A DNA stretch of 64,000 nucleotides, taken from assembly GCA_947625045.1 (NCBI GenBank), contig CANQMW010000012.1, forward strand, positions 1-64,000, in the 5' to 3' direction. This DNA is from an uncultured Oscillospiraceae bacterium (GTDB lineage: Bacteria > Bacillota > Clostridia > Oscillospirales > Oscillospiraceae). A program made the position numbers and the translations under genes. This document shows positions 46,241 through 60,808 of this stretch, piece after piece (the stretch's first letter is position 1; the number at the start of each line of letters is the position of its first letter). Under the pieces are notes generated by a model. That model searched no databases. It was not told the origin of the DNA and saw only the letters and a list, made by a program, of their open reading frames with translations.

Positions 46241-46255
46241 GGTTTATCCTCCAAA

Positions 46256-46271
46256 CGGCGGTCATCCGCCG
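46256..46271 (-). terminator. Small hairpin between the ArsC-like gene and gpsA
   Basis: CGGCGG and CCGCCG pair around a TCAT/ATGA loop, right after the ArsC-like stop and just before TTTGGAGG, the gpsA ribosome-binding site. On the plus strand CTTTTT follows, but no plus-strand gene needs it. Confidence 0.4.
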
Positions 46272-46276
46272 CTTTT

Positions 46277-46594
46277 TCATTCCCAGCTCTTCCACACGTC
46301 CGGGCAGTAGCCCACCGTGGCCTGTTTGCCGTTTCGGACGATAGGCGTCTTCAAAAGCTCTGGATATTCGAAGAGCTTATCCAGCTTGTCCTCGTCGTAG
46401 GCAAGATAGCTTATCTCCGGCGCGTCGCTCATGGCGGCCAGCCCCACCGCGTTCTTCACGCTGGTGAGCTCTCCCCGGCTCATGCCGTAGCGCTGGACGT
46501 CCACGTACTGGAACTTGATCCGCCGCTCCTTGAAATACCGCTGGGCTTTTTTCGTGTCGAAGCACTTATTCTTGCCAAATATCTGGATATTCAC
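46277..46594 (-). CDS. ArsC/Spx family thioredoxin-fold protein
   Basis: 105 residues from a GTG at 46592-46594 with GGAGG at ideal spacing. It has the ArsC-like fold: IQIFGKNKCFDTKKAQRYF with a single Cys11, and LLKTPIVRNG with the cis-Pro. Spx regulators have CxxC here; this protein has only one cysteine, so it is closer to the YffB/ArsC-like branch of unknown substrate. It is the first gene of the arsC-gpsA-S66 group. Confidence 0.85.
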   Translation of the reverse strand: MNIQIFGKNKCFDTKKAQRYFKERRIKFQYVDVQRYGMSRGELTSVKNAVGLAAMSDAPEISYLAYDEDKLDKLFEYPELLKTPIVRNGKQATVGYCPDVWKSWE

Positions 46595-46647
46595 CTGGCA
46601 TACCTCCACTCCGGCCAGACATGACCGCTCTGCTTTCAATAGAAAGA

Positions 46648-46682
46648 GAGCTCGATTGGCCACAGTATAGCCAATCGAGCTC
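46648..46682 (-). terminator. Hairpin after the methyltransferase-STAS gene
   Basis: GAGCTCGATTGGC (46648-46660) pairs perfectly with GCCAATCGAGCTC (46670-46682) around a 9-nt loop. On the minus strand TCTTTCTATTG follows. It lies about 115 bp past the stop codon of the accessory operon and is its likely end. I see nothing else between 46683 and 46797. Confidence 0.6.
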
Positions 46683-46797
46683 ATTATGTCAAGTTGGGCT
46701 AATAGGCAGAGCCTCCTGCTGGATGTCAGGGCCACCAGTCACTCAAGGTCCCAAAGACGATCCGCCCTCCTGTATCACCGCTGCCGCCGGAAACGGC

Positions 46798-48033
46798 TTA
46801 CACGTCGTCGGACAGCGCGCCATCGGCGGACACGAAGAACTGGCTGAAGCCGGTGTCCTTCAATATGGCCGCGACGGCGGCGTTCACGTTCGTGAGCCGG
46901 AAGTGGCCCTCGCCCATCTGCTTATACATGATGAGCATGACCCGCAGGCCCGCGGAGGAGGTGTATTCCAGGTTCTTGAGGTCCAGGGTGATATCCTTCA
47001 CGGCGGTGGGGATGTCCCAGAACGCGTTCAAAAGCGCCGGCGCGCTGATGGAGTCCATCCGGCCCGCGAGGCGTACGGTGAGCGCGTCCCCGTTCAGGTC
47101 CTGGTCGATGGCGAGCCCGCCGGCTCCTGTCCCGGCGGGCTGGGCCGCCTTCGCGACGCTGGGGGTCATGATCCACACATTGATCTTCTCCAGGGCCGCG
47201 GCAATGGCCTCGCGCTGCTCCGGCGTGCAGGCATAGAGGGTCCGCAGGCCCATGTTGGCCACGCCGGTGATGGGCCGCCGCTCCACAGAAAGGCCCATGC
47301 TCTCCAGGAAGGCCAGCTTCTCCTCATCGTTCGCGAACACGGGCGCGTGGTCCGCGTCGGCGGTCTTTTTGTTCACCTGGGAATCCACCAGCTTCAGGAA
47401 TTTCTCCCCCTGACCGCCGGTGACCGCCTGGATGATGGCGAGGAAATAGTGATCGCTCTCAAAGTCCGTGGTGACCCAGCAGCCGCCCCGCTGAGCCAGG
47501 AGCGCAGCGAAGTTTTTGACCATGGCGGTCATCTCGTTCTTGTCCAGATACGCCACCAGCCCCTCGCAGTCGATGGTGACGGGCCCCTCCGGCAGATGCG
47601 CGGCCGCCGCCGTCACGCTGGTGCCGTTGGTCACGTCCACCGCCTGGAAGATGGCCTTGCCGTCCAGCAGCTCCCTGGACACCCGGGCCATGTCCTCCAC
47701 CACCGCGGGCAGGTCGCCGCCCACGTAGTTATAGCCCCGGTCCATCAGGTACTTGGCCTTGGGCGTATAGCCGCAGGCCAGATCCAGCACGTTTTTGTTC
47801 CCCGCCTGCTCGATCATCCGGTTGGCCAGGGCGTAGCGCAGCTCGATGGTGATGGCGCCGATGCGCTTCAAAAGCTCGTACTCTTTGCCCTTGGCGTCCA
47901 CGTGGGGCATCTGCTCAAAGCCCAGCACCTTCTCAAAGGCGATGGAGTCCTCGTTGCCCACGGCGCTTAAGAGCGTCAGGGTCATCTTCGCGGTGTTGAA
48001 CACAGGGTTCGTAAGTTCATAAAGCTCGTTCAT
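46798..48033 (-). CDS. Methyltransferase-STAS fusion protein
   Basis: 411 residues with two domains. Residues about 1-300 form a SAM-dependent methyltransferase of the LCM/O-methyltransferase type; motif I is VLDLACGYTP at 82-91 and an acidic residue follows in GGDLP. Residues about 315-405 are a STAS domain like anti-sigma-factor antagonists, with the helix LEYTSSAGLRVML that carries the serine phosphorylated by SpoIIAB/RsbW-type kinases. Such a fusion suggests that methyl transfer is tied to a partner-switch signal. It has AAAGGAGA before the ATG and is the last gene of the accessory operon, 27 bp after a GG-leader peptide gene. The methyl acceptor is unknown. Confidence 0.85.
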   Translation of the reverse strand: MNELYELTNPVFNTAKMTLTLLSAVGNEDSIAFEKVLGFEQMPHVDAKGKEYELLKRIGAITIELRYALANRMIEQAGNKNVLDLACGYTPKAKYLMDRGYNYVGGDLPAVVEDMARVSRELLDGKAIFQAVDVTNGTSVTAAAAHLPEGPVTIDCEGLVAYLDKNEMTAMVKNFAALLAQRGGCWVTTDFESDHYFLAIIQAVTGGQGEKFLKLVDSQVNKKTADADHAPVFANDEEKLAFLESMGLSVERRPITGVANMGLRTLYACTPEQREAIAAALEKINVWIMTPSVAKAAQPAGTGAGGLAIDQDLNGDALTVRLAGRMDSISAPALLNAFWDIPTAVKDITLDLKNLEYTSSAGLRVMLIMYKQMGEGHFRLTNVNAAVAAILKDTGFSQFFVSADGALSDDV

Positions 48034-48060
48034 AAGTAGTCTCCTTTCGTCCCGGCCTTA

Positions 48061-48309
48061 TCAGCTCTTGAAATTCGGGCACTTCGCGTTGGGGTTCCCG
48101 CCGAACATAGCGTAAACATCTTCATGATCCATCTCTAAAGTCGTGCAATCCCAGTATAACTGGCAACTGTCGCAATTATTGTTGTTCTTAAATTGCTTAA
48201 CAAAATTGATATATTCCATAAGTTCACTGGCAGTCATTCCCCCGGAGACCTTGTCCAGGGCCTCGTCGGCCAGCTCCTTAGAAGCTTTTTTGTTCTCGCT
48301 GCCGTTCAT
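48061..48309 (-). CDS. GG-leader Cys-rich peptide 1
   Basis: 82 residues. The leader (1-24) is charged and ends in ELADEALDKVSGG, a double-glycine processing motif like that of bacteriocin and RiPP precursors. The remaining 58 residues contain four cysteines (CDSCQLYWDC, later CPNF) and an Asn run. The gene overlaps the stop codon of the giant Sel1 gene by 4 bp (ATGA), so its translation depends on that gene. Three sibling peptides lie at 54.9-55.6 kb. Maturation by a C39 peptidase is expected from the motif, but no such gene is in the window. Confidence 0.8.
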   Translation of the reverse strand: MNGSENKKASKELADEALDKVSGGMTASELMEYINFVKQFKNNNNCDSCQLYWDCTTLEMDHEDVYAMFGGNPNAKCPNFKS

Positions 48310-51300
48310 TGTGATACCTCCGCCAGGTCCGCCAGCCGCTGGGCGGCTCTGTCAAGCCCCAGCGCCGCGGCCTGTTCATAGAACTGCCGGGCCATATCCA
48401 GGTCCGCGTCCACGACCTTGCCGCGCTCGTACACCATGCCCAGTATCTCCATGGCATAGTACTCCCCCTGCTCTGCCGCGCCGGTCAGCAGCTCCAAGGC
48501 CTTTTCCGTGTTCTGTTCCACGCCCTGGCCGGCAAGATAGCAGAGGCCCAGCATATACATGGCTTCCCGGTCATTGTCCCCGGCGGCGTCAGCCAGCAGT
48601 TCCGCGGCCTTTTCATAGTCCTGCTCCACGCCATAGCCATCGAGGTACAGCATGCCAAGGGTCCGCTTATCGGAGATGTCCAGTTCGTCCTCTGCCTCCC
48701 ACGCCAGCAGAAGCTCTGCGGCCCGGCCAAAGAGCTCTTCGGCCCTCGCCTCGTCCTTTTCCTCGCCATCACCGTCTTTGAAAAAAGCGCCCAGCTCGAT
48801 CATGGCCTCTACCGTTTCATCGTCCGCCTCCAAGGCCTTTTCATACCACTCCACGGCCTTGGCGTCGTCCCTCTCCACCACGCCGTAGCCATACTCATAG
48901 AACTTGGCCAGCTGACACATGCCGGCGCTCTCACCGGCATCCGCCGCCGCCTGGGCCAGCTCGAAGGCCTTGCTCTCGTCCCGCTCAACGCCCAGGCCGC
49001 AGGCGTACAGCCAGCTCAGGTTCGCCGCGGCCATCGAGTCGCCCTGGTCCGCGGCCTGAGCGTAATACTCCGCCGCCTTGGCATAGTCACGCTCCACGCC
49101 GTCGCCGTATTCGTAGAGGCAGCCGATGTTGTTGAGCGCGTCGGTGCTGCCCATCTCCGCGGCCTTTTCGTACCACTCCATCGCTTTGGCGTAATCCTGC
49201 TCCGTGCCCTCGCCGTAATCGTGCATCACCCCCACGTCGAACGCCGCGCTGGCGCTGCCCAGCTCCGCCGCCGCGGTATAGCAGGCCAGGGCCTGCTCGT
49301 AATCCTGTTCCACGCCCTCGCCGGCATAGTACATATAGCCCAGCCACTCCCAGGCGTTGGGATCGTCCTGCTCCGCCGCCTGGCTGAAGAGCTCGAAAGC
49401 CTTTTCATAGTCCTGTTCCACGCCGTCGCCGTACACATACGCCATGGCCTTATCGAAAGCGTCCTCCGCAGCAGGAGCATTCTCCGCCGGGGCAGCGTCC
49501 TCCGCCGTCTCCTCCTCCGGCTCCGCCGCCAGCTTTTCCAGCACCTGGGCGGCTTCCTCAATGCCCAGCGCCGCGGCCTGTTCCAGCAGCTCCCTGCCCT
49601 TGGCCTGGTCCTGCTCCACGCCGTTTCCGCGCCAGTATAGGGTCCCCAGCGCGAAGAACGCTGCGGGCTCGCTCCATCCAGCCGCGGCGGTCAGGTACTC
49701 CACGCCCTTGGCCTCGTCCTTTTCCACGCCGTTGCCGAAATAATAGCAGGTGCCCAAAGCGAACAGGGCGTCCGGGTCGTCGTCCTCCGCCGCGGCGGCA
49801 AGCAGCTCCACGCCTTTGGCCTCATCCTTTTCCACGCCGTAGCCATGGAGATACATCTCGCCCAGCACATACTGCTCGCTGGAAGAAAGGTTATCCTCCT
49901 CTTCCCACTCCTGCAGCAGCGGCAAAGCCTGGGCATAGAGCTCGTCGGCCTTGGCCTCGTCCTGCTCCACGCCCTCGCCATAGTCATACATCCAGCCCAG
50001 CTGTACCATGGCCTTGGCGTTTTCGTCGTCCGCCTCGATGGCCTTTTCGTACCACTCCACGGCCTTGGCGTCGTCCACATCCACCGCGCCGTAGCCCTCG
50101 TCATAGAGCTCGCCCATCAGAAGCATACCGTAGGAGTCGCCCGCGTCCGCGGCCTTTTGGGCCAGCTCCAGGGCCTTGGCGGCGTCCCGCTCCACGCCCT
50201 TGCCGTAGAGATAGAGTTCCGCCAGGTTGCACATCGCCCGGCTCCTGCCCATATCCGCGGACTGGGCGTAATACTCCGCGGCTTTGGCATAGTCACGCTC
50301 CACGCCGTCACCGTTTTCATACATCAGGCCCAGATTGTTGGCAGCCGCGCCGCTGCCCAGCTCCGCGGCCTGGGTATAGAGCTCAAAGGCCTTGCCGGGG
50401 TCCTTCTCCACGCCCTCGCCCACGTTGTACATATAGCCCAGCTGGCCCAGCGCGCTGGCATTGCCCAGCGCCGCCGCCTTTTCGTAATACTCTATGGCCT
50501 GAGCGTTGTCCTCCTCCATGCCCTTGCCGTTGTCATACATCCAGCCCAGGGCGTAATAAGCCTCGGGGAGTTCCTGCTCCGCGGCCTTGGTGTAAAGCTC
50601 AATGGCCTTGTCATAGTCCTGGTCCACACTGTCGCCGGAATAGTACATATAGCCCAGGTCGTACATCGCCCGGCGCACGCCGTGCTCCGCCGCCTGGGTG
50701 TAGAGCTCCGCAGCCTCGGCCTTGTCCTCCTCCACACCGTAGCCATAGAAATAGCACTGGCCCAGATCGTACACGGCCCGCCAGTCGTCCATCTCCGCGG
50801 CGGCGGCCATGAGCTCCACGGACCTGGTCTCGTCCTGCTCCACGCCCTTGCCGTAGTCATAGAGGCAGGCGAGAACGCGCGCCTCCGCACCGGAGAGCTC
50901 GCTCTCGTCTATGGCGGTGAGCTGGGCGGCAAGGCGGTCGTAGAGCTCCTGGCTCTTGGCCTCGTCCTGCTCCACGCCAAAGCCCTCATCATAATCCCTG
51001 GCCAGATAGTACAGAGCCTCCGGCTGGTCCTGCTCCGCCGCTCTTTCATACCATTCCACAGCCTTGGCCAGGTCTATGTCCACCGCGCCAAAGCCGTTTT
51101 CATAGAAATCGCCCACCATATACATGGCGTCGGCGTAGCCGTCTTCCGCGGCCTGGGAGTAGTATTCAAAGGCCTTGGCCGTGTCCTGCTCCACGCCGTC
51201 GGCGAACATGTATATATCGCCCAGGGCCTTCATGGACCAAAGGTCCCTCATGGCCGCGCCCTGCTCATAGAGCTCTTTTACCTTGGCCGCGTCCTGTTCC

Positions 51301-54300
51301 ACGCCGGCGCCGGCCTGATAGACCTGGCCCATGTAGCCGTATGCCTCGGGTACGCCGTGGGCCGCCGCGTCCTCCAGCAGCTCCAGGCCCTTGGCCTCAT
51401 CCTTCTCCGTACCCAGGCCCATGATGTACATCACGCCAAGCTGGTTCTCGGCCTCGAAGATATCGTCCTCCGCCGCGGCGGTGAAATACGCAAGGGCCTT
51501 TTCATAGTCCTGCTCCACGCCGTAGCCATGCCCATAGAGATAGCCCAGCACCAGCTGGTTATAGCTGTAATCCTCATCCTCCAAGGCGGTCTCAAGGGCT
51601 TGGGCAAAGAGTTCCGCCGCCTTGTCCTTATCCATCTCCACGCCCTGGCCCTGCTCATAGAGCCAGCCCAGGTACAGCATGGCCTCGGCGTCGCCCTGGT
51701 CCGCGGCCTTCTGATACCACGCCGCGGCTTTGGCATAATCTACGTCTACCACGCCGTAGCCGTAGTCATAGTACCGGCCCAGGGAAGTCTGGCCGTCCAC
51801 ATAGCCCAGCTCCGCGGACTGGGTGTAGAGCTCAAAAGCCTTTTCCTTGTCCATCTCCACGCCCATGCCGTAGTCATAGAACCAGCCGTCGCTCTCCAAA
51901 GCGTAGCCCAGTTCATCGTCGTCCTGGGTGCGGGTCATGGACTGCTCATAGTACTCCCGCGCCTTGGCATAGTCCTCCTCCACGCCCTGGCCATACATGT
52001 ACATGTCGGCCAGATAGAAGCAGACGTTGGCATCCCCCAGGGCCTCGCCCTCGGTCAGGAGCTCCATGGCCTTTTCATAGTCCCGCTCCACGCCGGTGCC
52101 GGTCTTATAGGCGCCGCCCAGATAGTAGTATGCCATCGGCACGCCGTGGGCCGCCGCGTCGGAGAGCAGTTCAATGCCCTTGGCCCCGTCCTTCTCCGTG
52201 CCGAGGCCCCGCAGATACATCATGCCCAGCTCACATTCGGCCTCGAAGATATCGTCCTCCGCCGCCGCGGTGAGGTACGCCAGGGCCTTTTCATAGTCCT
52301 GTTCCACGCCGGTGCCGTCCAGGTAAAGGTAGCCCAGCACCAGCGCGTTATAGCTGTAGTCCTCATCCTCCGAGGCTGCCTCAAGAGCCTGGGCATAGAA
52401 CTCGTCGGCTTTCGCCTGATCCATCTCCACGCCCGCGCCCTGCTCATAGAGCCAGGCCAGATACAGCATGGCCTCCGCGTCGCCCTGGTCCGCCGCCTTC
52501 TGGTAGAGCTCCGCCGCCGTGGCGTAATCCTTGTCCATTATGCCGTAGCCATAGTCGTAGAACCGTCCCAGGGAGGTCTGGCCGTCCTTATAACCCAGCT
52601 CCGCCGACTGAGTGTAGAGCTCAAAGGCCTTGGCCTTGTCCATCTCCACGCCCATGCCGTACTCGTAGAACCAGCCGTCGCACTCCAAAGCGTAGCCCAA
52701 GTCATCGTCGCCCTGGGGGCGGGTCATGGACTGCTCGTAGTACTCCCGCGCCTTGGCGTAGTCCTTCTCCACGCCCATGCCGTACATATACATGTCGGCC
52801 AGGTAGAAGCAGACGTCGACGGCGCCCAAGGCCTCGCCCTGTTCCAGATACTCCGCGGCCTTGGCATAATCCTGCTCCACGCCAGTGCCATCCACATAGG
52901 CGTGGCCCAGATAGTAGTATGCCTCAGGCACGCCACGCTCCGCCGCGTCTTCCAGCATCTCAATGCCCTTGGCCTCGTCCTTCTCTGTGCCGAGACCCCC
53001 GAGATACATCGAACCCGCATGGCACTCGGCCTCGAAGATATCGTCCTCCGCCGCGGCGGTAAGGTACGCCAAGGCCTTTTCATAATCCTGTTCCACACCG
53101 GTGCCGTCCAGGTAAAGGTAGCCCAGCACCAGCTGATTGTAGCTGTAGTCCTCGTCCTCCGAGGCAGTCTCCAGGGCCTGCGCGTAGAACTCGTCGGCCT
53201 TGGCCTGGTCCATATCCACGCCCTGGCCCTGCTCATAGAGCCAGGCCAGGTACAGCATGGCCTCGGCGTCGCCCTGGTCCGCGGCCTTCTGGTACCACTC
53301 CGCGGCCTTTGTATAGTCACTGTCCACTACGCCGTAGCCGTAGTCGTAGAACCGGCCCAGGGAAGTCTGGCCGTCCACATAGCCCAGCTCCGCCGACTGG
53401 GTGTAGAGCTGGAAGGCCTTGGCCTTGTCCATCTCCACGCCCATGCCGTACTCATAGAACCAGCCGTCGTTCTCCAAAACGTAGCCCAGGGTCTCGTCGC
53501 TCAGCCCGTCAAAAGTCACGGCCTGCTCATAGTACTCCCGCGCCTTGGCATAGTCCTCCTCCACGCCTTGGCCGTACATATACATGTCGGCCAGGAAGAG
53601 GCAGACGTTAGGCTCATCCAGGGCCTCGGCCTCGTCAAACAGCTCCAGAGCCTTGCTGAAGTCCTGGTCCACACCTTCGCCGTAGTAGTACATGGCGCCC
53701 AGTCCCTCTATGGCCTCGGGCATGTTCATGTCCGCGCACTCGTTCAAAAGCTCCAAGGCCTTGTCGTACTCGCCCGCCTCATAATAGCACAGTGCCAGGT
53801 CGAACATGCCGTCCGGGTCGCCCAGCTCCGCGGAGGCGGTGAGGTATTCCATCGCCTTGCCGGCGTCTTCCTCCACACCCAGGCCGTACTTATAAATATA
53901 GCCCAGGAGGAAATAGCCGTTGTCATACTGCGCCTCCTCGCCGGCGTCGGTAAGGGTCTCCAGCGCCTGGCCGTAGAGCTCGTCGGCCTTGGCCTCGTCC
54001 TGCTCCACGCCCAAGCCGTTGGCGTAAAGGTCGCCCAGGAAGATCATGCCGCCCGCGTCACCCTGGTCCGCGGCCTTCTGATACCACTCCGCCGCCTGGG
54101 CGAAGTCTATATCCACCACGCCGTAGCCGAACTGATAGATCCGGCCCACGAACTGCTGGGAATAGGCGGAGCCGGCCGACCCGGTCTGGGAAAACAGCTC
54201 CAGGGCCTTTTCATAGCTCTGCTCTATGCCCTGGCCAAAGAAATACGACTCGGCCAGGTTCTCGATGCACTGGGTCTTGACGGGCCCATCCGCGCATTCC

Positions 54301-54785
54301 TCCATGGCCTTGGTCCAGCACTCCACGGCCTTGGCATAGTCCTTCTCCGTGCCCTCGCCATAGAAGTAGGCGGTGCCCAGGTTGCCATAGGCGTCGGGGG
54401 TCAGCTCCGCCGCCTTGGTGAACAGCTCAAAGGCCTTGGCTGCATCCTTTTCCACGCCCTCGCCCAGGACATACATCACGCCCAAGGCGTCCATGCTGCT
54501 GCCGTCGCCGCCGTCCGCGGCCTTCTGGTACATCTCTGCGGCCTTGGCCAGGTCCTGCTCCACCCCGTCGCCGGAGTAATACATCGTACCCAACTTGGCG
54601 CTGGCGGGGGCATAGTCCTTCTCCGCCGCCTTTTCAAGCAGCTCCTCGCCCTTGGCGGTGTCGCCGCCCTCCAGGGCCTCTATGGCCTCGTCATACATCT
54701 CCTCGGGCTTTTTCCCGCAGCCCGCGCACAGTCCCAGCAGCATGGCCGCCGCCAGGATGAATGCCAATACTTTTCGAAGCTTCAT
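48306..54785 (-). CDS. Giant Sel1-repeat lipoprotein, 2159 residues
   Basis: An N-terminal signal peptide ends in the lipobox CAGC with Cys23, so the protein is probably lipid-anchored outside the membrane. The rest is an almost unbroken array of Sel1-like repeats of about 36 residues (pattern A-x-Y-x-L-G-x-x-Y-x-x-G-x-G-V-E-x-D), about 58 by length. A Glu/Ala-rich linker (EEETAEDAAPAENAPAAED) interrupts it around residues 1740-1770. Within it three blocks repeat with a period of exactly 789 bp (263 residues). It is strikingly acidic. GGGGAGG precedes the ATG. Sel1 solenoids bind other proteins; here the neighbours suggest the GG-leader peptides or their products. No enzyme domain is visible. 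Confidence 0.92.
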   Translation of the reverse strand: MKLRKVLAFILAAAMLLGLCAGCGKKPEEMYDEAIEALEGGDTAKGEELLEKAAEKDYAPASAKLGTMYYSGDGVEQDLAKAAEMYQKAADGGDGSSMDALGVMYVLGEGVEKDAAKAFELFTKAAELTPDAYGNLGTAYFYGEGTEKDYAKAVECWTKAMEECADGPVKTQCIENLAESYFFGQGIEQSYEKALELFSQTGSAGSAYSQQFVGRIYQFGYGVVDIDFAQAAEWYQKAADQGDAGGMIFLGDLYANGLGVEQDEAKADELYGQALETLTDAGEEAQYDNGYFLLGYIYKYGLGVEEDAGKAMEYLTASAELGDPDGMFDLALCYYEAGEYDKALELLNECADMNMPEAIEGLGAMYYYGEGVDQDFSKALELFDEAEALDEPNVCLFLADMYMYGQGVEEDYAKAREYYEQAVTFDGLSDETLGYVLENDGWFYEYGMGVEMDKAKAFQLYTQSAELGYVDGQTSLGRFYDYGYGVVDSDYTKAAEWYQKAADQGDAEAMLYLAWLYEQGQGVDMDQAKADEFYAQALETASEDEDYSYNQLVLGYLYLDGTGVEQDYEKALAYLTAAAEDDIFEAECHAGSMYLGGLGTEKDEAKGIEMLEDAAERGVPEAYYYLGHAYVDGTGVEQDYAKAAEYLEQGEALGAVDVCFYLADMYMYGMGVEKDYAKAREYYEQSMTRPQGDDDLGYALECDGWFYEYGMGVEMDKAKAFELYTQSAELGYKDGQTSLGRFYDYGYGIMDKDYATAAELYQKAADQGDAEAMLYLAWLYEQGAGVEMDQAKADEFYAQALEAASEDEDYSYNALVLGYLYLDGTGVEQDYEKALAYLTAAAEDDIFEAECELGMMYLRGLGTEKDGAKGIELLSDAAAHGVPMAYYYLGGAYKTGTGVERDYEKAMELLTEGEALGDANVCFYLADMYMYGQGVEEDYAKAREYYEQSMTRTQDDDELGYALESDGWFYDYGMGVEMDKEKAFELYTQSAELGYVDGQTSLGRYYDYGYGVVDVDYAKAAAWYQKAADQGDAEAMLYLGWLYEQGQGVEMDKDKAAELFAQALETALEDEDYSYNQLVLGYLYGHGYGVEQDYEKALAYFTAAAEDDIFEAENQLGVMYIMGLGTEKDEAKGLELLEDAAAHGVPEAYGYMGQVYQAGAGVEQDAAKVKELYEQGAAMRDLWSMKALGDIYMFADGVEQDTAKAFEYYSQAAEDGYADAMYMVGDFYENGFGAVDIDLAKAVEWYERAAEQDQPEALYYLARDYDEGFGVEQDEAKSQELYDRLAAQLTAIDESELSGAEARVLACLYDYGKGVEQDETRSVELMAAAAEMDDWRAVYDLGQCYFYGYGVEEDKAEAAELYTQAAEHGVRRAMYDLGYMYYSGDSVDQDYDKAIELYTKAAEQELPEAYYALGWMYDNGKGMEEDNAQAIEYYEKAAALGNASALGQLGYMYNVGEGVEKDPGKAFELYTQAAELGSGAAANNLGLMYENGDGVERDYAKAAEYYAQSADMGRSRAMCNLAELYLYGKGVERDAAKALELAQKAADAGDSYGMLLMGELYDEGYGAVDVDDAKAVEWYEKAIEADDENAKAMVQLGWMYDYGEGVEQDEAKADELYAQALPLLQEWEEEDNLSSSEQYVLGEMYLHGYGVEKDEAKGVELLAAAAEDDDPDALFALGTCYYFGNGVEKDEAKGVEYLTAAAGWSEPAAFFALGTLYWRGNGVEQDQAKGRELLEQAAALGIEEAAQVLEKLAAEPEEETAEDAAPAENAPAAEDAFDKAMAYVYGDGVEQDYEKAFELFSQAAEQDDPNAWEWLGYMYYAGEGVEQDYEQALACYTAAAELGSASAAFDVGVMHDYGEGTEQDYAKAMEWYEKAAEMGSTDALNNIGCLYEYGDGVERDYAKAAEYYAQAADQGDSMAAANLSWLYACGLGVERDESKAFELAQAAADAGESAGMCQLAKFYEYGYGVVERDDAKAVEWYEKALEADDETVEAMIELGAFFKDGDGEEKDEARAEELFGRAAELLLAWEAEDELDISDKRTLGMLYLDGYGVEQDYEKAAELLADAAGDNDREAMYMLGLCYLAGQGVEQNTEKALELLTGAAEQGEYYAMEILGMVYERGKVVDADLDMARQFYEQAAALGLDRAAQRLADLAEVSQ
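51094..53460 (-). repeat. Three tandem 789-bp super-repeats inside the Sel1 gene
   Basis: The landmark CCAGCCGTCG starts at 53460, 52671 and 51882, exactly 789 bp apart each time. The encoded blocks (for example GWFYEYGMGVEMDKAKAF and TSLGRFYDYGYG) are nearly identical in the three copies, whereas the blocks on either side are related but diverged. The unit boundaries given are arbitrary because the array is cyclic. Confidence 0.85.
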
Positions 54786-54813
54786 TTTATGTACCTCCCC
54801 GGTTTAATATTTT

Positions 54814-54870
54814 TTATTCAGACAGGTCCGCCAGGGCCTCATTGCTCTTTTTTGTCTCGCCGCTTTCCAT
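54814..54870 (-). pseudogene. Truncated GG-leader peptide stump
   Basis: An 18-codon frame, MESGETKKSNEALADLSE, begins with the same AAGGAGAACG ribosome-binding site and leader as the neighbouring peptides but stops before the double glycine. It lies between peptide 2 and the Sel1 gene. It reads as a deletion remnant of another family member; an active short leader is less likely. Confidence 0.6.
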
Positions 54871-54897
54871 GTTCGTTCTCCTTTTCTGACTATTTCA

Positions 54898-55131
54898 CTA
54901 CCGTCTCGCCTGCCGTACTGTATAGCCCTTTTTCCGGCGATCATCCATGCAGCTCGGACATAATGAACAGTTCACATCGCCGCACAGACAGTGCTGAACG
55001 CTTTTGTCCTGCCGGAGACAATCAATACATATCAAATACTGTTCAGTGCTGTCGTCTGTCCCACCGGAGACCTTGTCCAGCGCCTCGTCGGCCAGTTCTT
55101 CGCTGCTCTTTTTGGCCTCGTTGTCGTTCAT
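54898..55131 (-). CDS. GG-leader Cys-rich peptide 2
   Basis: 77 residues from MNDNEAKKSSEELADEALD; the ATG at 55129-55131 has AAAAGGAGAACG upstream. The leader ends in DKVSGG at 19-24. The 53-residue core is the richest in cysteine of the family (seven: CIDC, CLC, C, CPSC), then a basic tail ending KKGYTVRQARR. Spacing of the cysteine pairs would suit a zinc site or disulfide knots. It shares leader and ribosome-binding site, but not core, with the peptides on both sides. Confidence 0.78.
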   Translation of the reverse strand: MNDNEAKKSSEELADEALDKVSGGTDDSTEQYLICIDCLRQDKSVQHCLCGDVNCSLCPSCMDDRRKKGYTVRQARR

Positions 55132-55151
55132 GATCGTTCTCCTTTTGATCC

Positions 55152-55358
55152 TCACGCCTTATCGGGGCAGGACGTATTGCCCAATTTCAAAAAGCCACCA
55201 GTCGGAGCACCGTAGGGACAGCCATCATAAAAGTGACAGCAGACGTCGCAATTGTTCTCTTTAAATACTTCCCAAGAAGTATACCTCCCCCCTGCCACCT
55301 TGTCCAGGGCGTCGTCGGGCAGGGCTTCGCTGCCTTTTTTGTTTTCATTGTTTTCCAT
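55152..55358 (-). CDS. GG-leader Cys-rich peptide 3
   Basis: 68 residues from MENNENKKGSEALPDDALDK, with AAAAGGAGAACC before the ATG at 55356-55358. The leader ends in VAGG at 21-24. The core has five cysteines (CDVCCHFYDGC and a late C) and a Gly-rich turn (PYGAPTGGF). The open frame extends upstream, but the conserved leader fixes the start. It lies 20 bp from peptide 2 and 13 bp from peptide 4. Confidence 0.78.
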   Translation of the reverse strand: MENNENKKGSEALPDDALDKVAGGRYTSWEVFKENNCDVCCHFYDGCPYGAPTGGFLKLGNTSCPDKA

Positions 55359-55371
55359 GGCGGTTCTCCTT

Positions 55372-55602
55372 TTACCTTTTCCAACCGCTGAGTTGATACC
55401 AGCAGGTCTCACAAAACCATACTCCATCGGTCCTTTTGAAGGCGGCGTTGCCGCTGACCGATTTGTGGCAGTTGCTGCACTCGTGATCGGAATAGAGTTC
55501 ATCGAACTCGAGCATCTCGCTTGCCCAGCTTCGACTCCCGCCGGCGACCATATCCAGCGCCTCGTCGGTCAGCTCCTCAAAGCTCTTTTTATTGTTTTCC
55601 AT
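55372..55602 (-). CDS. GG-leader peptide 4 with zinc-finger-like core
   Basis: 76 residues from MENNKKSFEELTDEALDM, with AAAGGAGAACC upstream. The leader ends in VAGG at 19-22. The core contains CSNC and, 18 residues on, CETC, with a His between or near each pair (HECSNCHK, FCETCWYQ), which resembles a LIM-like or treble-clef zinc ribbon. It is the first peptide gene after the ATP-grasp gene, 75 bp downstream. Its function is unknown. Confidence 0.78.
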   Translation of the reverse strand: MENNKKSFEELTDEALDMVAGGSRSWASEMLEFDELYSDHECSNCHKSVSGNAAFKRTDGVWFCETCWYQLSGWKR

Positions 55603-55677
55603 GACGGTTCTCCTTTCTGGCTTCTGTCCCTTTATACGACCCACCGGGGCAAAAGGGCCAAAGATGACCCGCTTTTT

Positions 55678-56616
55678 TCATGCGTTCTCCCTGCTGTTCC
55701 ACGCGGACAGCAATATGTCCTCTACCATTTCCTCGTAGGCTATCCCGGAGTACTCCGCCGCCCGGGGCATCAGGCTCTCCCGCTTCAGCCCCGGCACCGC
55801 GTTTATCTCCAACGTGTAGATGCGGCCCGTATCGTGGCTCACCATGAAGTCCACCCGGCCCACATCCTTCGCGCCGGTGATCTTAAATACCTTCTCCGCC
55901 GTCCGCTCCATCTGGTGGAGCAGCTTTTCATCCAGCTTCGGCGGCTCCACGCCGTACTCCCCGGTGAACAGCGTCAGGTCGTTCTTCTTATGTACCCGCG
56001 CGCCGGACAGGGTCTCCACACCCTCCACGCACTTGAGGGTGATGAGCTTCCCCTCCTTTTCAAAGAGCCCCACGGTGTAAAAGCCCCCGTCGATGAACTC
56101 TTCCAATAAGATGGGGTCGTCGAATTTAAACACATGGGCCATCTTGGGCAGGTCCTCCGGGGAGCGTATCAGCTCTATGCCAAAGCTGCCCCCCTGGCTG
56201 GGCGCCTTCGCCACGAAGGGATAGCCCAGCGCGGCATAGTCGAAGTCTCCCCGGTCGTATTCCTCCTTCCGCAGGATGGTCCACCGGGGCGTGGGCACGC
56301 CGTAGTGGTCGAAGAGAAACTTGCAGAGGATCTTATCGTTGATGAGCATGGCCGCGTGGGTGCGGCTGCCCGTATAGGGGATCCCCTCGTGGTCCAGCAT
56401 GGCCTGCAGGGTCCCGTCGCCGTGGTACTTTCCCTGCACGCAGAGATAGACGATGTCAGCCTTCTCCCGCCGCAGGGCATGGACCATGTCCCGGCCGTAT
56501 TCCAGCATGCATACGTCATAGCCCTTCTGCCGCAGGACGCTTTCTATGCTCTTGGCATTCTTTGTGGAGGCCCCCGCCTCGCTGGAGGTACCGCCGTATA
56601 CGATAGCAACTTTCAT
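55678..56616 (-). CDS. D-Ala-D-Ala ligase-like ATP-grasp enzyme
   Basis: 312 residues of the ATP-grasp fold. The N-terminal YGGTSSEAGAS recalls GGxSxEhxVS of Ddl. VQGKYHGDGTLQAMLD replaces HGxxGEDG. The ATP loop SQGGSFGI and metal ligands in LEINAVPGL are present. Differences from true Ddl at the first two motifs make a changed substrate likely. AAGGAGT precedes the ATG. It lies between the MATE/ATPase gene and the GG-leader peptides; ATP-grasp ligases can also modify ribosomal peptides. A second true ddl may lie elsewhere. Active-site Lys and Glu residues seem intact. Confidence 0.82.
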   Translation of the reverse strand: MKVAIVYGGTSSEAGASTKNAKSIESVLRQKGYDVCMLEYGRDMVHALRREKADIVYLCVQGKYHGDGTLQAMLDHEGIPYTGSRTHAAMLINDKILCKFLFDHYGVPTPRWTILRKEEYDRGDFDYAALGYPFVAKAPSQGGSFGIELIRSPEDLPKMAHVFKFDDPILLEEFIDGGFYTVGLFEKEGKLITLKCVEGVETLSGARVHKKNDLTLFTGEYGVEPPKLDEKLLHQMERTAEKVFKITGAKDVGRVDFMVSHDTGRIYTLEINAVPGLKRESLMPRAAEYSGIAYEEMVEDILLSAWNSRENA

Positions 56617-56652
56617 GTGTTTATACTCCTTTTCTTTCCGGGCAGCCCGGTA

Positions 56653-57369
56653 TCAGATCGTGATGAGCAGGTTGTTCATATCCATCGTGTTGGTGTAGGT
56701 CACATCCTTGGAGAGAGACAACACCAGGCGGATGCCCACATTTTCCTCCGGATGCTCCGGGTCCAGGGTCCAGGAGCGGACCTTCTCCTTCAGGTCGAAC
56801 TTGGCGCAGTCGTCCCGCAGCCGCAGCAGCACGTCCCCGTCCCGCAGTATGACCCGGATGTCCACGCTGTGCCGTTTTCCGTCGGCGAAGCCGTAGGTCA
56901 CCGTGTTGCCCGCCATCTCCTCCACGCACAGCGCCGCCAGATAGCTCCTTCGCCGGTCTACGTCGTGGCTGGAGCAGAAGGCACTGATATGCTGAGAAAG
57001 GCCTATGACCTGCTCCATGGCCGTGACGGACACGGATATGTAGTCGCTCTCAGGCAGGCTGAAGCCCCGGGGCAGGAACAGGAGCTTTTCCGCCCCTTTC
57101 GCGTCCGTATCGCGCCGCAGCGCGCCGCAAAGGAGGAACACCGCCAGCGTCACGAGCTGACTTACGCAATAGGCCGCCCACACGCCGTTGATGCCGAACA
57201 GTTTTCCCAGCACGGCCACGCATGCCACCAGGCTTATGAGCTCGTTGCCGATGTTGATGGTATAGGCGCGGCGCCGGTCCCCCAGGGCCGTCAGGTAGTT
57301 GCCCACGCACATGTTCACCGCCATGGGCGGCAGGGACAGGGCAAACCAGCGCAGCGCGTTGGCCGCCAT
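56653..57369 (-). CDS. C-terminal part of MATE-ATPase fusion: RsbW/SpoIIAB-like ATPase domain
   Basis: 238 codons following the in-frame TAG at 57379-57381. The first 85 or so residues finish the MATE transporter (MAANALRWFALSLPPMAVNM and three helices). The last 135 are an HATPase_c_2 domain with the N-box LCVEEMAGNTVTYGF and a G2-like ENVGIRLVLSLSKDV, as in anti-sigma kinases RsbW and SpoIIAB. The ATG at 57369 has no ribosome-binding site, so independent translation is unlikely. It makes sense only as the end of the upstream frame. Confidence 0.75.
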   Translation of the reverse strand: MAANALRWFALSLPPMAVNMCVGNYLTALGDRRRAYTINIGNELISLVACVAVLGKLFGINGVWAAYCVSQLVTLAVFLLCGALRRDTDAKGAEKLLFLPRGFSLPESDYISVSVTAMEQVIGLSQHISAFCSSHDVDRRRSYLAALCVEEMAGNTVTYGFADGKRHSVDIRVILRDGDVLLRLRDDCAKFDLKEKVRSWTLDPEHPEENVGIRLVLSLSKDVTYTNTMDMNNLLITI

Positions 57370-57378
57370 CTTTTTGGC

Positions 57379-58428
57379 CTACGGCGCGTCCGGCAGATAA
57401 AACGCCGCCAGGGCTGGTGCGAACAGAATCACAGCGCCGGCAATGACGCTCATCAGGCCGACAGCGTACCACAGCGTCACCCGCACGGTCTGCTTCAGGC
57501 CGTTCACGTCCTTCTCCCCCGCGTACACGCCGGTCATCAGCATCACCGCCCCAGCCATGCCCACGATGGGGCTGCGGACCACCAGTTTCACATTACTCTG
57601 CGCCGACAGGGCCGACAGCCCCGCCGTGGCGGCCACGGACAGGACAATGCTGTTGATGAGGATGGGCCCTATGGCCCGGCATATCTGGGTGGCGCCGCTG
57701 GGAAGGCCCCCCGCGACGATCTTCGGCGTCAGCCGCCAGTTCATATCCTTGGCCCGGAAGTGGAAGAGCCGGTCCTTCTTCCTGAAATGGGTCAGAAGCA
57801 CCGCCAGGGCCGCGTAGTTGCTGACCGCTGTGCCCAGGCCCAGGCCCAGCAACCCCATCTTCATCACGACCATAAACAGGACGTCGCCGATCACGTCCAC
57901 TACCGTGATGGTCAGACTTGCCACGGTGGTCCGTTTCGCCCCGCCGTCCAGCTGGACGATAGGCGAGAGGATAGCCACCATGATGAGGCCCGGCGTGCCG
58001 GTGAAGAGGCCTATGAGATAGGCTCTGGCATAGGGCAGAAGCTCCGCTGAGGCGCCCCGGGCGCCCAGCAGCCGCGCGAAGGGCCCCGCCAGGATGATCC
58101 CCACTGCCGTCATCACGCAGGACAGTACCATCCCCAGTGTGCAGCACAGGGAGAATATCCGGTCCGCCTCGTCCAGCCGGCCGCTTCCCACGCTGCGGGC
58201 GCACATGGTCTGACAGCTGGTCATCAGCACGCCGCTGATGACGGCGGCGATGCTGTAGTAGGGCGTACATATGCCCAGGGCGGCCAGCTCCGCCGCGCCC
58301 AGCAGCCGCCCGGCCATGGCCCCGTCCACCAGGGTCGCCGCGGCGTGGGCCAATTCCATCATGGTCATCACGATCATGGCGCCGAAAAACTGCTTATAGA
58401 TCACAGATGATGTATGGGCTTTTTCCAT
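57379..58428 (-). CDS. MATE transporter, N-terminal part of a MATE-ATPase fusion cut by an in-frame TAG
   Basis: 349 residues with about nine transmembrane helices and MATE hallmarks (ELAHAAATLVDGAMAGRLLG, DVIGDVLFMVVMKMG). The frame stops at a single TAG (57379-57381), and the same frame continues without other lesions for 242 more codons into the rest of the transporter and an RsbW-like ATPase. The whole would be about 590 residues. Either a recent nonsense mutation, suppression of the TAG, or a sequencing error explains it. It is the first gene of the accessory operon; GAGAGGAAAG precedes the ATG. Confidence 0.8.
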   Translation of the reverse strand: MEKAHTSSVIYKQFFGAMIVMTMMELAHAAATLVDGAMAGRLLGAAELAALGICTPYYSIAAVISGVLMTSCQTMCARSVGSGRLDEADRIFSLCCTLGMVLSCVMTAVGIILAGPFARLLGARGASAELLPYARAYLIGLFTGTPGLIMVAILSPIVQLDGGAKRTTVASLTITVVDVIGDVLFMVVMKMGLLGLGLGTAVSNYAALAVLLTHFRKKDRLFHFRAKDMNWRLTPKIVAGGLPSGATQICRAIGPILINSIVLSVAATAGLSALSAQSNVKLVVRSPIVGMAGAVMLMTGVYAGEKDVNGLKQTVRVTLWYAVGLMSVIAGAVILFAPALAAFYLPDAP

Positions 58429-58581
58429 CTTTCCTCTCCCTTGTCTTAAGGCAATATTCTACCTATTAGATTTTATCACGGCCGCCGGAGCCCTTCAACG
58501 AGTGAGTCCTGACGTTTTCGCAGTCAGACCTGACTTTTGCGAAGTGGGCCCGTTGGCCTTTCAACGATACCCCCCCATCGC
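58429..58581. other. Divergent intergenic region with left inverted-repeat copy
   Basis: The gap between the MATE-ATPase gene and tex. It holds the left copy of a 38-bp inverted repeat (58508-58545) and A/T-rich sequence near 58450-58480 that may carry the minus-strand promoter, though no good -35/-10 pair is visible. No frame is supported. Confidence 0.5.
58508..58545 (+). repeat. Left copy of an inverted repeat flanking tex
   Basis: It begins CCTGACGTTTTCGC and ends TTTGCGAAGT. It matches the reverse complement of 60979-61016 at 35 of 38 positions. Each copy itself holds two related direct units (CCTGACGTTTTCGC and CCTGACTTTTGCG). Confidence 0.8.
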
Positions 58582-58610
58582 TTGCGCTGAAGGCTCGCCC
58601 CTGTTATAAT
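58582..58610 (+). promoter_or_regulatory. tex promoter
   Basis: TTGCGC (58582-58587) and a perfect TATAAT (58605-58610) have a 17-bp spacer, about 45 bp before the tex ATG. Confidence 0.75.
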
Positions 58611-58654
58611 GGCATCCATGCCAAAATGAGACCGATGAAAAGGAACGACAGACC

Positions 58655-60808
58655 ATGGATCATGCGAAGATCATAGCGGAGGAACTGGGCCTGCGCCCCG
58701 GGCAGATACAGGCGGTCATCGACCTGCTGGACGGGGGCAACACCATCCCCTTCATCGCCCGGTACCGGAAGGAGGCCCACGGCTCCATAGACGACCAGAC
58801 CCTGCGGCAGATCGCCGAAAGGCTTTCGTATCTGCGGGGGCTGGAAAAGCGCCGGGAGGAGATCGAAAAGGCCCTGACAGAGCAGGGCGTCCTGACAGAG
58901 GAGCTCACGGAAAAGCTGCGGGCCGCGAAAACGCTGGCGGAGCTGGAAGACCTCTACCGCCCCTTCCGGCCCAAGCGCCGGACCCGGGCCACGGTGGCTA
59001 AGGAGCGGGGCCTGGAGCCCCTGGCCCAGTGGCTGCTGCTGAACCAGGCCCGGTCGGACGTGGCTGCCGCGGCGGAAAAGTATATAAGCGAGGACGTGCC
59101 GGACGCGGAGAGCGCCCTTGCCGGGGCGCGGGACATCATCGCCGAGACGGTCAGCGACGACGCGGCCCTCCGCAAAGACCTGCGGGCGCTTCTGCTGCGG
59201 GACGGTGTCATAAACACGACCGCTGCCAAGGACGAGGACAGCGTCTACCGGATGTACTATGACTACCAGGAGCCGGTACCCCGCATGGCCCCTCACCGGG
59301 TGCTGGCCGTCAACCGGGGCGAACGGGAGGGATTCCTGAAGGTGACCCTTTCTGTGCCGGATGACCGCGTTCTGGACCGGATACGGCGGCGCTTCGTCCG
59401 GGCCAATGGCGAGGCTGCCCGGCAGGTGGCCATGGCCTGCGAGGACGCCTGGGACCGGCTCCTCTTCCCCTCTCTTGAGCGGGAACTGCGGGGCGAGCTG
59501 ACAGATAGGGCCAACGAGTCCTCCATCCGCGTCTTCAGCCAAAATCTCCACCAGCTTCTCATGCAGCCGCCGGTGAAGGGGCGGGTCATATTGGGCGTGG
59601 ACCCGGGGTTCCGCACCGGGTGCAAGCTGGCCGTGGTTGACGAAAACGGCAAGGTTCTGGAGACGGGCGTTGGGTATTTCACCCTGCCCGGCCAGACCCG
59701 CCAGAAGGAGCAGGCGGCCAAACTGATCGAGAGCATGGTGCGGCGGCACCATGTGACGGCCATCGCCATCGGCAACGGCACCGCCTCGAGAGAGAGCGAG
59801 CAGTTCATCGTCTCCCTCCTGCCCCGGCTGCCCGGCGCCGCCTACGCCATCGTCAGCGAGGCGGGCGCGTCCGTGTACTCCGCCAGCCCCCTGGCCGCCC
59901 GGGAATTCCCCGATTACGACGTGTCCCTGCGCAGCGCCGTGTCCATCGCCCGGCGGCTGCAGGACCCCCTGGCGGAGTTGGTGAAGATCGACCCCAAGGC
60001 CATCGGCGTGGGGCAGTATCAGCATGACCTGAAGCAGGCGGAGCTGTCCGCCGCCCTGGACGGGGTGGTGGAGCAGTGCGTCAACGACGTGGGCGTGGAG
60101 GTGAGCACCGCCTCGGCGGAGCTATTGAGCCGCGTGGCGGGCATCGGTCCCGTGCTGGCCAGGAATATCGTGGCCTGGCGGGAAGAAAATGGGCCCATCC
60201 CCTCCCGGGCGGCCCTGAAGAAGGTACCCAAGCTGGGGCCCAAGGCCTTCGAGCAGTGCGCCGGCTTCCTCCGGGTGGCGGACAGCCGGGAGCCCCTGGA
60301 CGCCACCGCCGTCCACCCGGAGAGCTACGACAGCGCCAAGGCGCTTTTGAAGACCCTGGGCTTCTCCCTGGGGGACATCCGAAACGGCGGCGTGCCCCAG
60401 ATAGGCCCGCGGGCAAAGGAATACGGGCTGGAGAAGCTGGCCGCGGAGCTGGATGTGGGCCTGCCTACCCTGAAGGACATGCTCGCGGAGCTTGCAAAGC
60501 CCGGCCGGGACCCCCGGGAGGAGCTTCCCGCCCCGGCTCTTCGCACCGACGTGCTGGACATCAAGGACCTGAAGCCCGGCATGGAGCTGACCGGCACGGT
60601 GCGAAACGTCATCGACTTCGGCGCGTTCGTGGACATCGGCGTCCACCAGGACGGTCTGGTCCACATCTCCCGCATGGCGGACAGGTTCGTGAAGCACCCC
60701 TCGGACGTGGTGAAGGTGGGCGACGTGATAAAGGTCTGGGTGGTGGAGGCGGACCCGGTGAAAAGGCGCATCGCCCTGACCATGGTAAAGGAGCATGATG
60801 ACCAGTAA
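58655..60808 (+). CDS. tex: Tex family RNA-binding transcription accessory protein
   Basis: 717 residues in the normal Tex order: N-terminal helical domain (NTIPFIARYRKEA), YqgF/RuvC-like domain (ILGVDPGFRTGCKLAVVD), helix-hairpin-helix (GIGPVLARNIVAWR), and a C-terminal S1 domain (GTVRNVIDFGAFVDIGVHQDGLVHIS). It binds nucleic acid and influences transcription in many bacteria; the exact role is unclear. The catalytic YqgF residues are not all those of active resolvases. It is a single-gene unit between the inverted repeats. Confidence 0.96.
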   Translation: MDHAKIIAEELGLRPGQIQAVIDLLDGGNTIPFIARYRKEAHGSIDDQTLRQIAERLSYLRGLEKRREEIEKALTEQGVLTEELTEKLRAAKTLAELEDLYRPFRPKRRTRATVAKERGLEPLAQWLLLNQARSDVAAAAEKYISEDVPDAESALAGARDIIAETVSDDAALRKDLRALLLRDGVINTTAAKDEDSVYRMYYDYQEPVPRMAPHRVLAVNRGEREGFLKVTLSVPDDRVLDRIRRRFVRANGEAARQVAMACEDAWDRLLFPSLERELRGELTDRANESSIRVFSQNLHQLLMQPPVKGRVILGVDPGFRTGCKLAVVDENGKVLETGVGYFTLPGQTRQKEQAAKLIESMVRRHHVTAIAIGNGTASRESEQFIVSLLPRLPGAAYAIVSEAGASVYSASPLAAREFPDYDVSLRSAVSIARRLQDPLAELVKIDPKAIGVGQYQHDLKQAELSAALDGVVEQCVNDVGVEVSTASAELLSRVAGIGPVLARNIVAWREENGPIPSRAALKKVPKLGPKAFEQCAGFLRVADSREPLDATAVHPESYDSAKALLKTLGFSLGDIRNGGVPQIGPRAKEYGLEKLAAELDVGLPTLKDMLAELAKPGRDPREELPAPALRTDVLDIKDLKPGMELTGTVRNVIDFGAFVDIGVHQDGLVHISRMADRFVKHPSDVVKVGDVIKVWVVEADPVKRRIALTMVKEHDDQ

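Follow-up and report, generated by a model that had tools for sequence, protein, structure and literature searches.

The window analyzed here is the whole 64,000-nucleotide stretch of a contig from an uncultured Oscillospiraceae bacterium (genome assembly of 2.93 Mb in 73 contigs, 95% complete). An 11.6-kb run of genes in it encodes four small cysteine-rich peptides with a common double-glycine (GG) leader, a giant Sel1-repeat protein, a Ddl-like ATP-grasp ligase, a MATE transporter with an RsbW-like ATPase domain and a methyltransferase-like domain joined to a STAS domain (MT-STAS). Sequence comparisons suggest that this locus is probably a satellite of a dispersed secreted-peptide regulon with a shared exporter, a shared promoter-like element and a Sel1 partner. 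About a dozen scattered sites in the genome encode small Cys-rich peptides, apparently with one exporter and one control sequence, and some of these sites adjoin genes for giant surface proteins. The system is real and recurring; its kind of export is known, and its cargo, regulon and partners look new. An initial annotation of the region had proposed that the peptides are exported and perhaps ligated and methylated and that the Sel1 protein might display, bind or guard them, and had named homologs scattered without co-occurrence as evidence against such a system. This interpretation was supported in part: export stood, and the same kinds of parts were in the main found together in relatives, but modification of the peptides was not supported. 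Genomes, contigs and loci are designated by G, C and L numbers.

GG-leader peptides and their cores

The leader pattern was matched four times in the window with up to three mismatches, compared with a mean of 0.04 matches in 100 shuffles, and a leader-only remnant was found in addition, which bears out the proposed family of Cys-rich peptides with a common GG leader. With up to one mismatch the pattern occurred at 32 places in the genome, compared with two for the reversed pattern. A total of 71 distinct GG-leader peptides, counted as matches to the leader text pattern, were collected from eight genomes (assigned by locus handle or shared assembly name), and 28 of them belong to the genome of the window. 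At least four core cysteines are present in 64 of the 71 peptides and 60 fit one of two layouts. Among 23 Cys peptides of the same genome, leaders share a mean identity of 62% and cores of 27%, with leader identity exceeding core identity in 251 of 253 pairs. All four window leaders are recognizable by sequence; one window peptide scored 20.3 bits with the ComC model (cut-off 20.4), and matches to Bacteriocin_IIc were weak.

The first core layout, type B, carries two CxC/CxxC knuckles. A profile of 18 rows, selected by their cysteine pattern, matched a designed finger protein (1.2e-7), RpoM (8.7e-7), a small CPxCG zinc finger (2.7e-4) and LysW (2.5e-3) in the PDB, and also small c-type cytochromes (6.6e-4). 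From the two CxxC-type knuckles and this profile similarity we infer that type B cores are zinc-ribbon-like and bind metal. The type A profile (CxxC..C..C, often NNCxxC..CPYG..CP) gave no meaningful match in the PDB (best E 0.26) and had 28 matches in the genome of the window, some of them in the leader alone. The invariance of the four cysteines in alignments A3 and A5 is partly by construction, as the rows were preselected. Signal-peptide-like proteins adjoin peptide arrays in L187 (2653-3438) and L072 (1-777), the former with a Peptidase_C70 match (1e-5).

A candidate exporter outside the window

Export remains the best reading for the GG peptides, as the one C39 peptidase detected in the genome (E<=0.001) lies on contig C34, outside the window, and precedes peptides with the same leader. 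The peptidase-bearing ABC protein (L032:5659-7833) scored 952.9 bits with TIGR03796 (cut-off 853.3) and the second ABC protein (L032:7845-10043) 751.1 bits with TIGR03797 (cut-off 709.4). The HlyD-like protein 5' of the pair (L032:5175-5654) reached 43.6 bits with TIGR03794, compared with a cut-off of 156.2, over the first 58 of 421 model positions. Genes for an MT-STAS paralog, a STAS protein and a STAS-APH protein are located 5' of the exporter, and peptides with window-like leaders (KKxxEELxDEALDxVxGG) follow on its 3' side. Because the leader is shared, we infer that the window peptides are served by the C34 exporter.

Precursors of the NHLP family (TIGR03793) were not detected among the peptides scored, for which the best value was 15.4 bits (L127) and the window peptides gave at most 12.2, compared with a cut-off of 50.9. 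Six of ten scanned peptides, none of them from the window, matched the Nif11-like model (TIGR03798) with 22.6-31.9 bits (cut-off 32.3). The exporter was found at E<=1e-150 in 15 of 150 family genomes, in 13 of them above its cut-off. VanX-like D-Ala-D-Ala dipeptidase genes were seen near an exporter or a peptide in L032 (11399-12127, PF01427 2.3e-45), L162 (7141-7800) and L180 (1423-2160).

A promoter-like element shared by peptide arrays

A conserved noncoding block of about 40 bp was noticed in the gaps that lead from a Sel1 stop to the first peptide. With up to one mismatch, its core CGTATAAAGRGACRGA is present at 14 places in the genome of the window, compared with two for the reversed core, and at 30 places in four of 13 other genomes (14 in G150, six in G151, eight in G152 and two in G157), compared with five for the reversed core over all 13; the resulting 44 places take in orthologous sites from sister genomes. 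A GCCCTTTT-like box, which was absent from the search pattern, lies about 20 nt 5' of the core at 43 of the 44 places under a box rule that was widened after the sites had been seen. No fewer than 33 places have, within 240 nt of the element, the start of a GG-containing open reading frame (ORF) with a ribosome-site-like sequence, and in 21 of these 33 the start is 36-40 nt away; the GG rule is lax, and at least one place counted as 'other' (L262) holds a peptide that begins with GTG. At the remaining places the element stands before a gene for a HATPase-SDF-like transporter (L268) or for a small membrane protein (L243, L272), or no ORF qualifies under the rule. The window contains a single, exact match, and the number of matches at up to three mismatches is not beyond chance there (0.54 expected).

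A nearly constant spacing, together with the CGTATA box, suggests that the element is the promoter of an alternative sigma factor. Proteins of 163-167 aa with sigma-70 regions 2 and 4 adjoin exporters in G022 (L160) and G148 (L166). If the regulon is real, transcripts should begin directly 3' of CGTATAAAG at many arrays together. The element also offers a handle, a single motif that locates precursor arrays in these genomes. The small membrane protein headed by the element in L243 and L272 begins MKLxEKIQxAVSIIAAAG, and a look-alike in L034 (10621-10848) follows a GG peptide.

Giant Sel1 proteins beside peptide arrays

The 2159-residue Sel1 protein of the initial annotation was recovered with a Sel1 score of 1128.7 bits over 51 stretches and a lipobox-like LCAGC identified by eye; Pfam revealed no toxin domain in it. 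In the same genome, Sel1 matches (150 scored of 313 candidates) fall on contigs C3, C12, C13 and C23, and on each of these contigs GG peptides follow a giant Sel1 gene. Among the matches listed, including sister loci from 11 genomes chosen for MT-STAS relatives, GG peptides lie within 2 kb on the same strand for nine of 11 Sel1 genes of at least 1500 aa (the exceptions being L178 and L180), compared with one of 12 tabulated smaller frames, a tabulation that leaves out at least six small frames adjoining listed ones (665 aa in L176, 447 aa in L179, 490 aa in L181, 581 aa in L184, and in the genome of the window 973 aa on C13 and 918 aa on C3), of which those of L179 and L181 are situated among peptides. 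The contig ends within L175, and L182 has no tabulated Sel1 frame. In L180 a GG peptide is found 2.9 kb away, beyond the 2-kb rule, and in both L178 and L180 the giant gene is followed by an ABC transporter gene together with tandem copies of a small secreted protein. Many of the giants share similar signal and lipobox regions. In the window, the Sel1 stop and the start of peptide 4 overlap as ATGA, which suggests that the two are translationally coupled.

Partner-switch genes near exporters and peptides

The initial annotation described two fusions, and each stood in part. The MATE-ATPase fusion is present in the window as two pieces in one frame, parted by a TAG codon, and as a single open frame in G150 (594 aa, with MatE and HATPase_c_2) and G152 (596 aa). 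The MT-STAS protein has a clear STAS match (1.1e-10) and a weak methyltransferase half (Methyltransf_23 at E=0.033, below the cut-off), for which a profile matched one S-adenosylmethionine methyltransferase chain (E=8.3e-4). Its SSAG motif is invariant in two alignments (6/6 and 14/14 rows), and we take the SSAG serine of the STAS domain to be the phospho-acceptor. A HATPase domain is present in the window and HATPase together with SpoIIE in L084, L163 and L226, so that the domains of a putative partner switch are all represented.

Among 79 MT-STAS loci (the best 79 of 152 relatives found), 13 have GG peptides nearby, compared with none of 79 in a reversed-sequence control. C39-exporter matches above 400 bits occur in four of the 79, three of them with peptides. 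SpoIIE matches were more frequent in loci with peptides (4/13 compared with 3/66, p=0.012), and STAS-APH matches were not (4/13 compared with 18/66, p=0.75). MT-STAS was considered as a marker of the peptide system and rejected, given peptides in 13 of 79 loci.

Starting from the exporter, a STAS match was located within about 6 kb in at least six of 15 genomes (G000, G004, G022, G072, G077, G109). Cache-SpoIIE phosphatases are present in exporter loci L084, L162 and L163, with HATPase in two of the three. The most complete arrangement is found in G157 on C10 (L187, L231), where about 19 kb of genes in one direction encode STAS, MATE-HATPase, GH3, SpoIIE (in two frames), STAS-APH, an HlyD-like protein, the C39 exporter, a second ABC protein, peptides and a 631-aa Sel1 protein. 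The same gene kinds are present in G151 (C12) and G152 (C3) with a giant Sel1 gene on the contig, so that STAS, MATE-HATPase, SpoIIE, STAS-APH, exporter, peptides and Sel1 share one contig in three genomes. No ligase match was found in the exporter loci of these three genomes and no MT-STAS in the stretches fetched.

Several further genes were observed in these neighborhoods. A GH3-family protein is encoded between MATE-HATPase and SpoIIE in exporter loci (L231, PF03321 1.4e-61; look-alikes in L232 and L233). SDF (DctA-like) transporters adjoin MT-STAS in L033 (1120-2703 and 2919-4499); their N-terminus was read as ATPase-like, and Pfam reports SDF only. A gene similar to these is headed by the element in G150 (L268). 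An AIM24/TIGR00266 protein adjoins MT-STAS in L033 (278-1030) and L084 (9273-9953), and was present in 3/13 loci with peptides and 0/66 without.

Related loci and spread

Close relatives of the locus are present in G150 (L224) and G152 (L225), with MATE-HATPase, ligase, one or two peptides and MT-STAS and without Sel1. Three matching pieces share 91.6, 89.5 and 94.0% DNA identity between the window and L224, and 92.2, 79.6 and 93.4% between the window and L225. The L224 match stops where the first window leader ends and resumes within the third peptide, and in L225 the first window leader is joined to a different core. These junctions show that the leader boundary was a site of core exchange, insertion or loss; by the same comparison, Sel1 and the extra peptides were either gained in the window or lost in L224 and L225.

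The type A profile matched five of 150 family genomes at 1e-3 and three of 394 order genomes at 1e-4; to judge from its coordinates, one of the latter, G249, is apparently the genome that contains L092 and L135, and it belongs to another family. Weak type A matches are roughly 3 kb or less from exporter genes in G006 and G109, and about 0.4 kb from a STAS match in G057. At the limits used, neither exporter, MT-STAS, element nor type A match was detected in G095, a genome of the same genus that is 97% complete. The nearest named relatives are uncultured Oscillospiraceae from 'Lapin' assemblies, a name read as rabbit gut.

A working model and its alternatives

In the favored model of a dispersed regulon, the element would act as a promoter, perhaps of an alternative, extracytoplasmic function (ECF)-like sigma factor. 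The NHLM-type exporter on C34 would cleave after Gly-Gly and secrete the cores of the window and of other arrays in trans, and the cores might then form mini-domains with four cysteines, probably metal-bound, and need no dedicated enzyme for maturation. MATE-HATPase, MT-STAS, STAS, STAS-APH and the SpoIIE phosphatase would form a partner-switch circuit, in which the ATPase domains may bind or phosphorylate STAS serines and thereby gate transport or expression. In the weakest step, the giant Sel1 protein, a putative lipoprotein, would be located on the cell surface and could bind secreted cores as a dock or receptor.

Several observations weigh against this model. The exporter is not in the window and is linked to the window peptides by the common leader; its HlyD-like part is short and below the cut-off, and a further C39 peptidase could be missing from an assembly that is 95% complete. 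The split MATE-ATPase of the window may be non-working here. Peptides are not seen at 66 of the 79 MT-STAS loci. Two of the 11 giant Sel1 genes lack a peptide within 2 kb, and several of the nine that do are orthologs in sister genomes and hence not independent. The complete locus of G157 encodes a small Sel1 protein of 631 aa with no lipobox cysteine, and L224 and L225 have no Sel1 gene, although both contain MATE-HATPase, ligase, peptide and MT-STAS. Nine of the 13 other genomes lack the element, and GG peptides are present in at least four of these nine (G153, G158, G159, G160).

The alternative that survives best, though it is rather unlikely, regards the peptides as bacteriocins: the cores would be antibacterial, Sel1 would bind the peptide at the surface, and a VanX-like dipeptidase and the Ddl-like ligase would alter the D-Ala-D-Ala target. 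The GG leaders resemble class II leaders, as seen in the near-threshold ComC and weak Bacteriocin_IIc scores, and VanX-like M15 genes adjoin the exporter in L032, L084 and L162 and were found in 3/13 MT-STAS loci with peptides compared with 1/66 without (p=0.013). However, loci with peptides are longer on average (18.7 compared with 14.2 kb), which favors matches; the dipeptidase was present in only two of 21 other peptide loci tested, and the ligase shows no enrichment. The zinc-ribbon-like cores are also unlike the bacteriocins known to us, which we count against this proposal. Van-style immunity as a reading of its own was set aside and is retained only within it.

A bolder form of the dispersed regulon envisages a shuffled surface repertoire, in which leader-anchored recombination swaps metal-binding four-Cys cores that would leave through one exporter and dock on Sel1 arrays, under a partner-switch sigma regulon. 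As a whole, this seems unlikely.

It is similarly improbable that Sel1 and the partner-switch genes are independent modules that occupy the same hot spots as peptide arrays and have no joint function. Such a mosaic would fit the sister loci L224 and L225 without Sel1, a transposase-like gene in L225, and the occurrence of MT-STAS and HATPase fusions without peptides; in most giant loci Sel1 and the peptides have the element between them, so that separate transcription is possible. Set against this are the recurrence of alike neighborhoods across several genomes, the peptides near nine of the 11 giant Sel1 genes among the matches listed, and the ATGA overlap of Sel1 and peptide 4 in the window.

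The proposal that the Ddl-like enzyme ligates onto the peptides and that MT-STAS methylates them before export would make the locus a cluster for ribosomally synthesized and post-translationally modified peptides (RiPPs). The ATP-grasp enzyme itself was correctly recognized and is homologous to Ddl over its length; its best TIGR/NCBIfam score of 204.3 bits lies below the 243 of the D-Ala-D-Ala ligase family model. Alignment by eye showed that it retains much of the ATP-grasp C-terminal core, including a metal- and ATP-binding end (GRVD, LEIN, PGL..SLMP), and diverges from Ddl at the GEDG and FYDYxAKY regions, the roles of all these residues being assumed. A second Ddl-like gene elsewhere in the genome (33% identity) is perhaps the housekeeping copy. 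Ligase and MT-STAS flank the peptide array in the window, L224 and L225, and the type B profile also matched LysW, a small carrier protein that is charged by an ATP-grasp enzyme. The contexts of the two enzymes nevertheless speak against modification. A 96%-identical copy of the ligase adjoins a SpoIIE phosphatase with no peptide listed; among the arrays of the same genome that were viewed, the ligase adjoins that of the window only, the exporter loci of G151, G152 and G157 do not contain it, and the ligase query was matched in 0/13 MT-STAS loci with peptides and 1/66 without. MT-STAS has peptides nearby in a minority of its loci and keeps SSAG, a motif of STAS proteins in partner switches. 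No known maturase family was found among the neighbors run in Pfam/NCBIfam, most neighbors not having been run and no search aimed at maturases having been made. RiPP modification by the ligase was dropped as the leading interpretation on this context evidence and is quite doubtful.

Finally, the peptides could be intracellular zinc-ribbon regulators, such as type B cores resemble, with a GG motif that is no cleavage site; this is very improbable, since leaders are conserved and cores are not, the C39 exporter is followed by same-leader peptides, and Nif11-like leaders share the element.

Features of the window

The gene content described by the initial annotation is confirmed as a whole: all genes lie on the minus strand with short gaps (Table 1). 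The promoter-like element and the hairpin 3' of MT-STAS are additional to the genes named there. Scans of the region gave six sigma-70-like promoter sites, compared with 3.4 expected from shuffles, and 14 terminator-like sites, compared with 7.2. No Rfam match up to E 0.5 was obtained across positions 46000-59500, and a PADLOC scan up to 1e-5 of eight proteins from the window, a set without Sel1, gave no match either. A lipoprotein-like ORF (MKKLLAVILSAVLMLSACAFTEG..) was observed at 61096-62220, with look-alikes in L180 and directly 5' of an element and Nif11-like peptide in L237.

Table 1. Annotated features of the locus, listed from high to low window positions
Feature	Position	Strand	Basis
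Weak sigma-70-like promoter match (9/12) 5' of MATE	58470..58498	-	motif scan
MATE transporter N-terminal part, 349 aa, ends at in-frame TAG	57379..58428	-	MatE 6.7e-25
MATE end and RsbW/SpoIIAB-like ATPase domain, 238 aa, in frame with MATE part	56653..57369	-	HATPase_c_2 9.1e-10
Ddl-like ATP-grasp ligase, 312 aa	55678..56616	-	Dala_Dala_lig_C 8.4e-29
Promoter-like conserved element, GCCCTTTT box then CGTATAAAGGGACAGA, at head of peptide array	about 55621..55661	-	
GG-leader peptide 1, core type B (CxxC..CxxC)	55372..55602	-	
GG-leader peptide 2, core type A (NNCxxC..CPYG..CP)	55152..55358	-	
GG-leader peptide 3, core Cys-rich; close counterpart in L224 and L225	54898..55131	-	
Leader-start-only remnant, 18 codons then stop	54814..54870	-	by eye
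Giant Sel1-repeat protein, 2159 aa, lipoprotein-like signal	48306..54785	-	
GG-leader peptide 4, core type A; start overlaps Sel1 stop	48061..48309	-	
Methyltransferase-like domain fused to STAS (MT-STAS), 411 aa	46798..48033	-	
Terminator-like hairpin, 16 pairs and T-rich tail, 3' of MT-STAS	46648..46682	-	

Comparison with known systems

The initial annotation did not recognize the combination as a described class. This holds for cargo, regulon and Sel1 partner, which look new, but not for the kind of export. The exporter kind (TIGR03796/TIGR03797) and the hypervariability of its precursors were described by Haft et al. 2010 (PMC2887384). As in these NHLM/NHLP systems (TIGR03794/TIGR03796/TIGR03797), both ABC proteins score above curated cut-offs, many hypervariable precursors are encoded per genome, and Nif11-like precursors are present, here just below the cut-off. 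The present system differs in its short GG leaders without a significant NHLP match, its partner-switch genes, the shared element and the giant Sel1 protein; the term STAS is absent from the text of that article (PMC2887384). In the open-licence literature, judged by title and start of abstract, no paper was found that joins Sel1 or STAS with GG-leader export.

Sel1 repeats also occur within secreted proteins among polymorphic toxins (PMC3482391), whereas here 51 stretches lie in a 2159-aa lipoprotein-like protein that adjoins small peptides and has no toxin domain in Pfam. In MlaFB (PMC7367683) a STAS protein sits on an ABC ATPase and works together with the transporter, which is of another kind; here the link between STAS proteins and an ABC transporter is one of neighboring genes. 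With the SpoIIAA-SpoIIAB-SpoIIE and RsbV-RsbW switches the system shares SSAG STAS proteins, HATPase_c_2 domains and SpoIIE phosphatases, and in some genomes NHLM exporters have all of these nearby. In contrast to these switches, no sigma factor partner was identified, no search for one having been made in the genome of the window, and the fusion partners are MATE for the ATPase and a methyltransferase-like or APH-like domain for STAS. Class II bacteriocins and ComC-type peptides have a comparable short acidic leader ending in GG, together with a C39 peptidase transporter in the genome, but the peptides described here differ by four-cysteine, partly zinc-ribbon-like cores and a two-ABC exporter of the NHLM kind. 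The system thus links features that were not found joined in the literature searched: NHLM-type export, four-cysteine and zinc-ribbon-like cargo, transporter-fused partner-switch proteins and giant Sel1 proteins.

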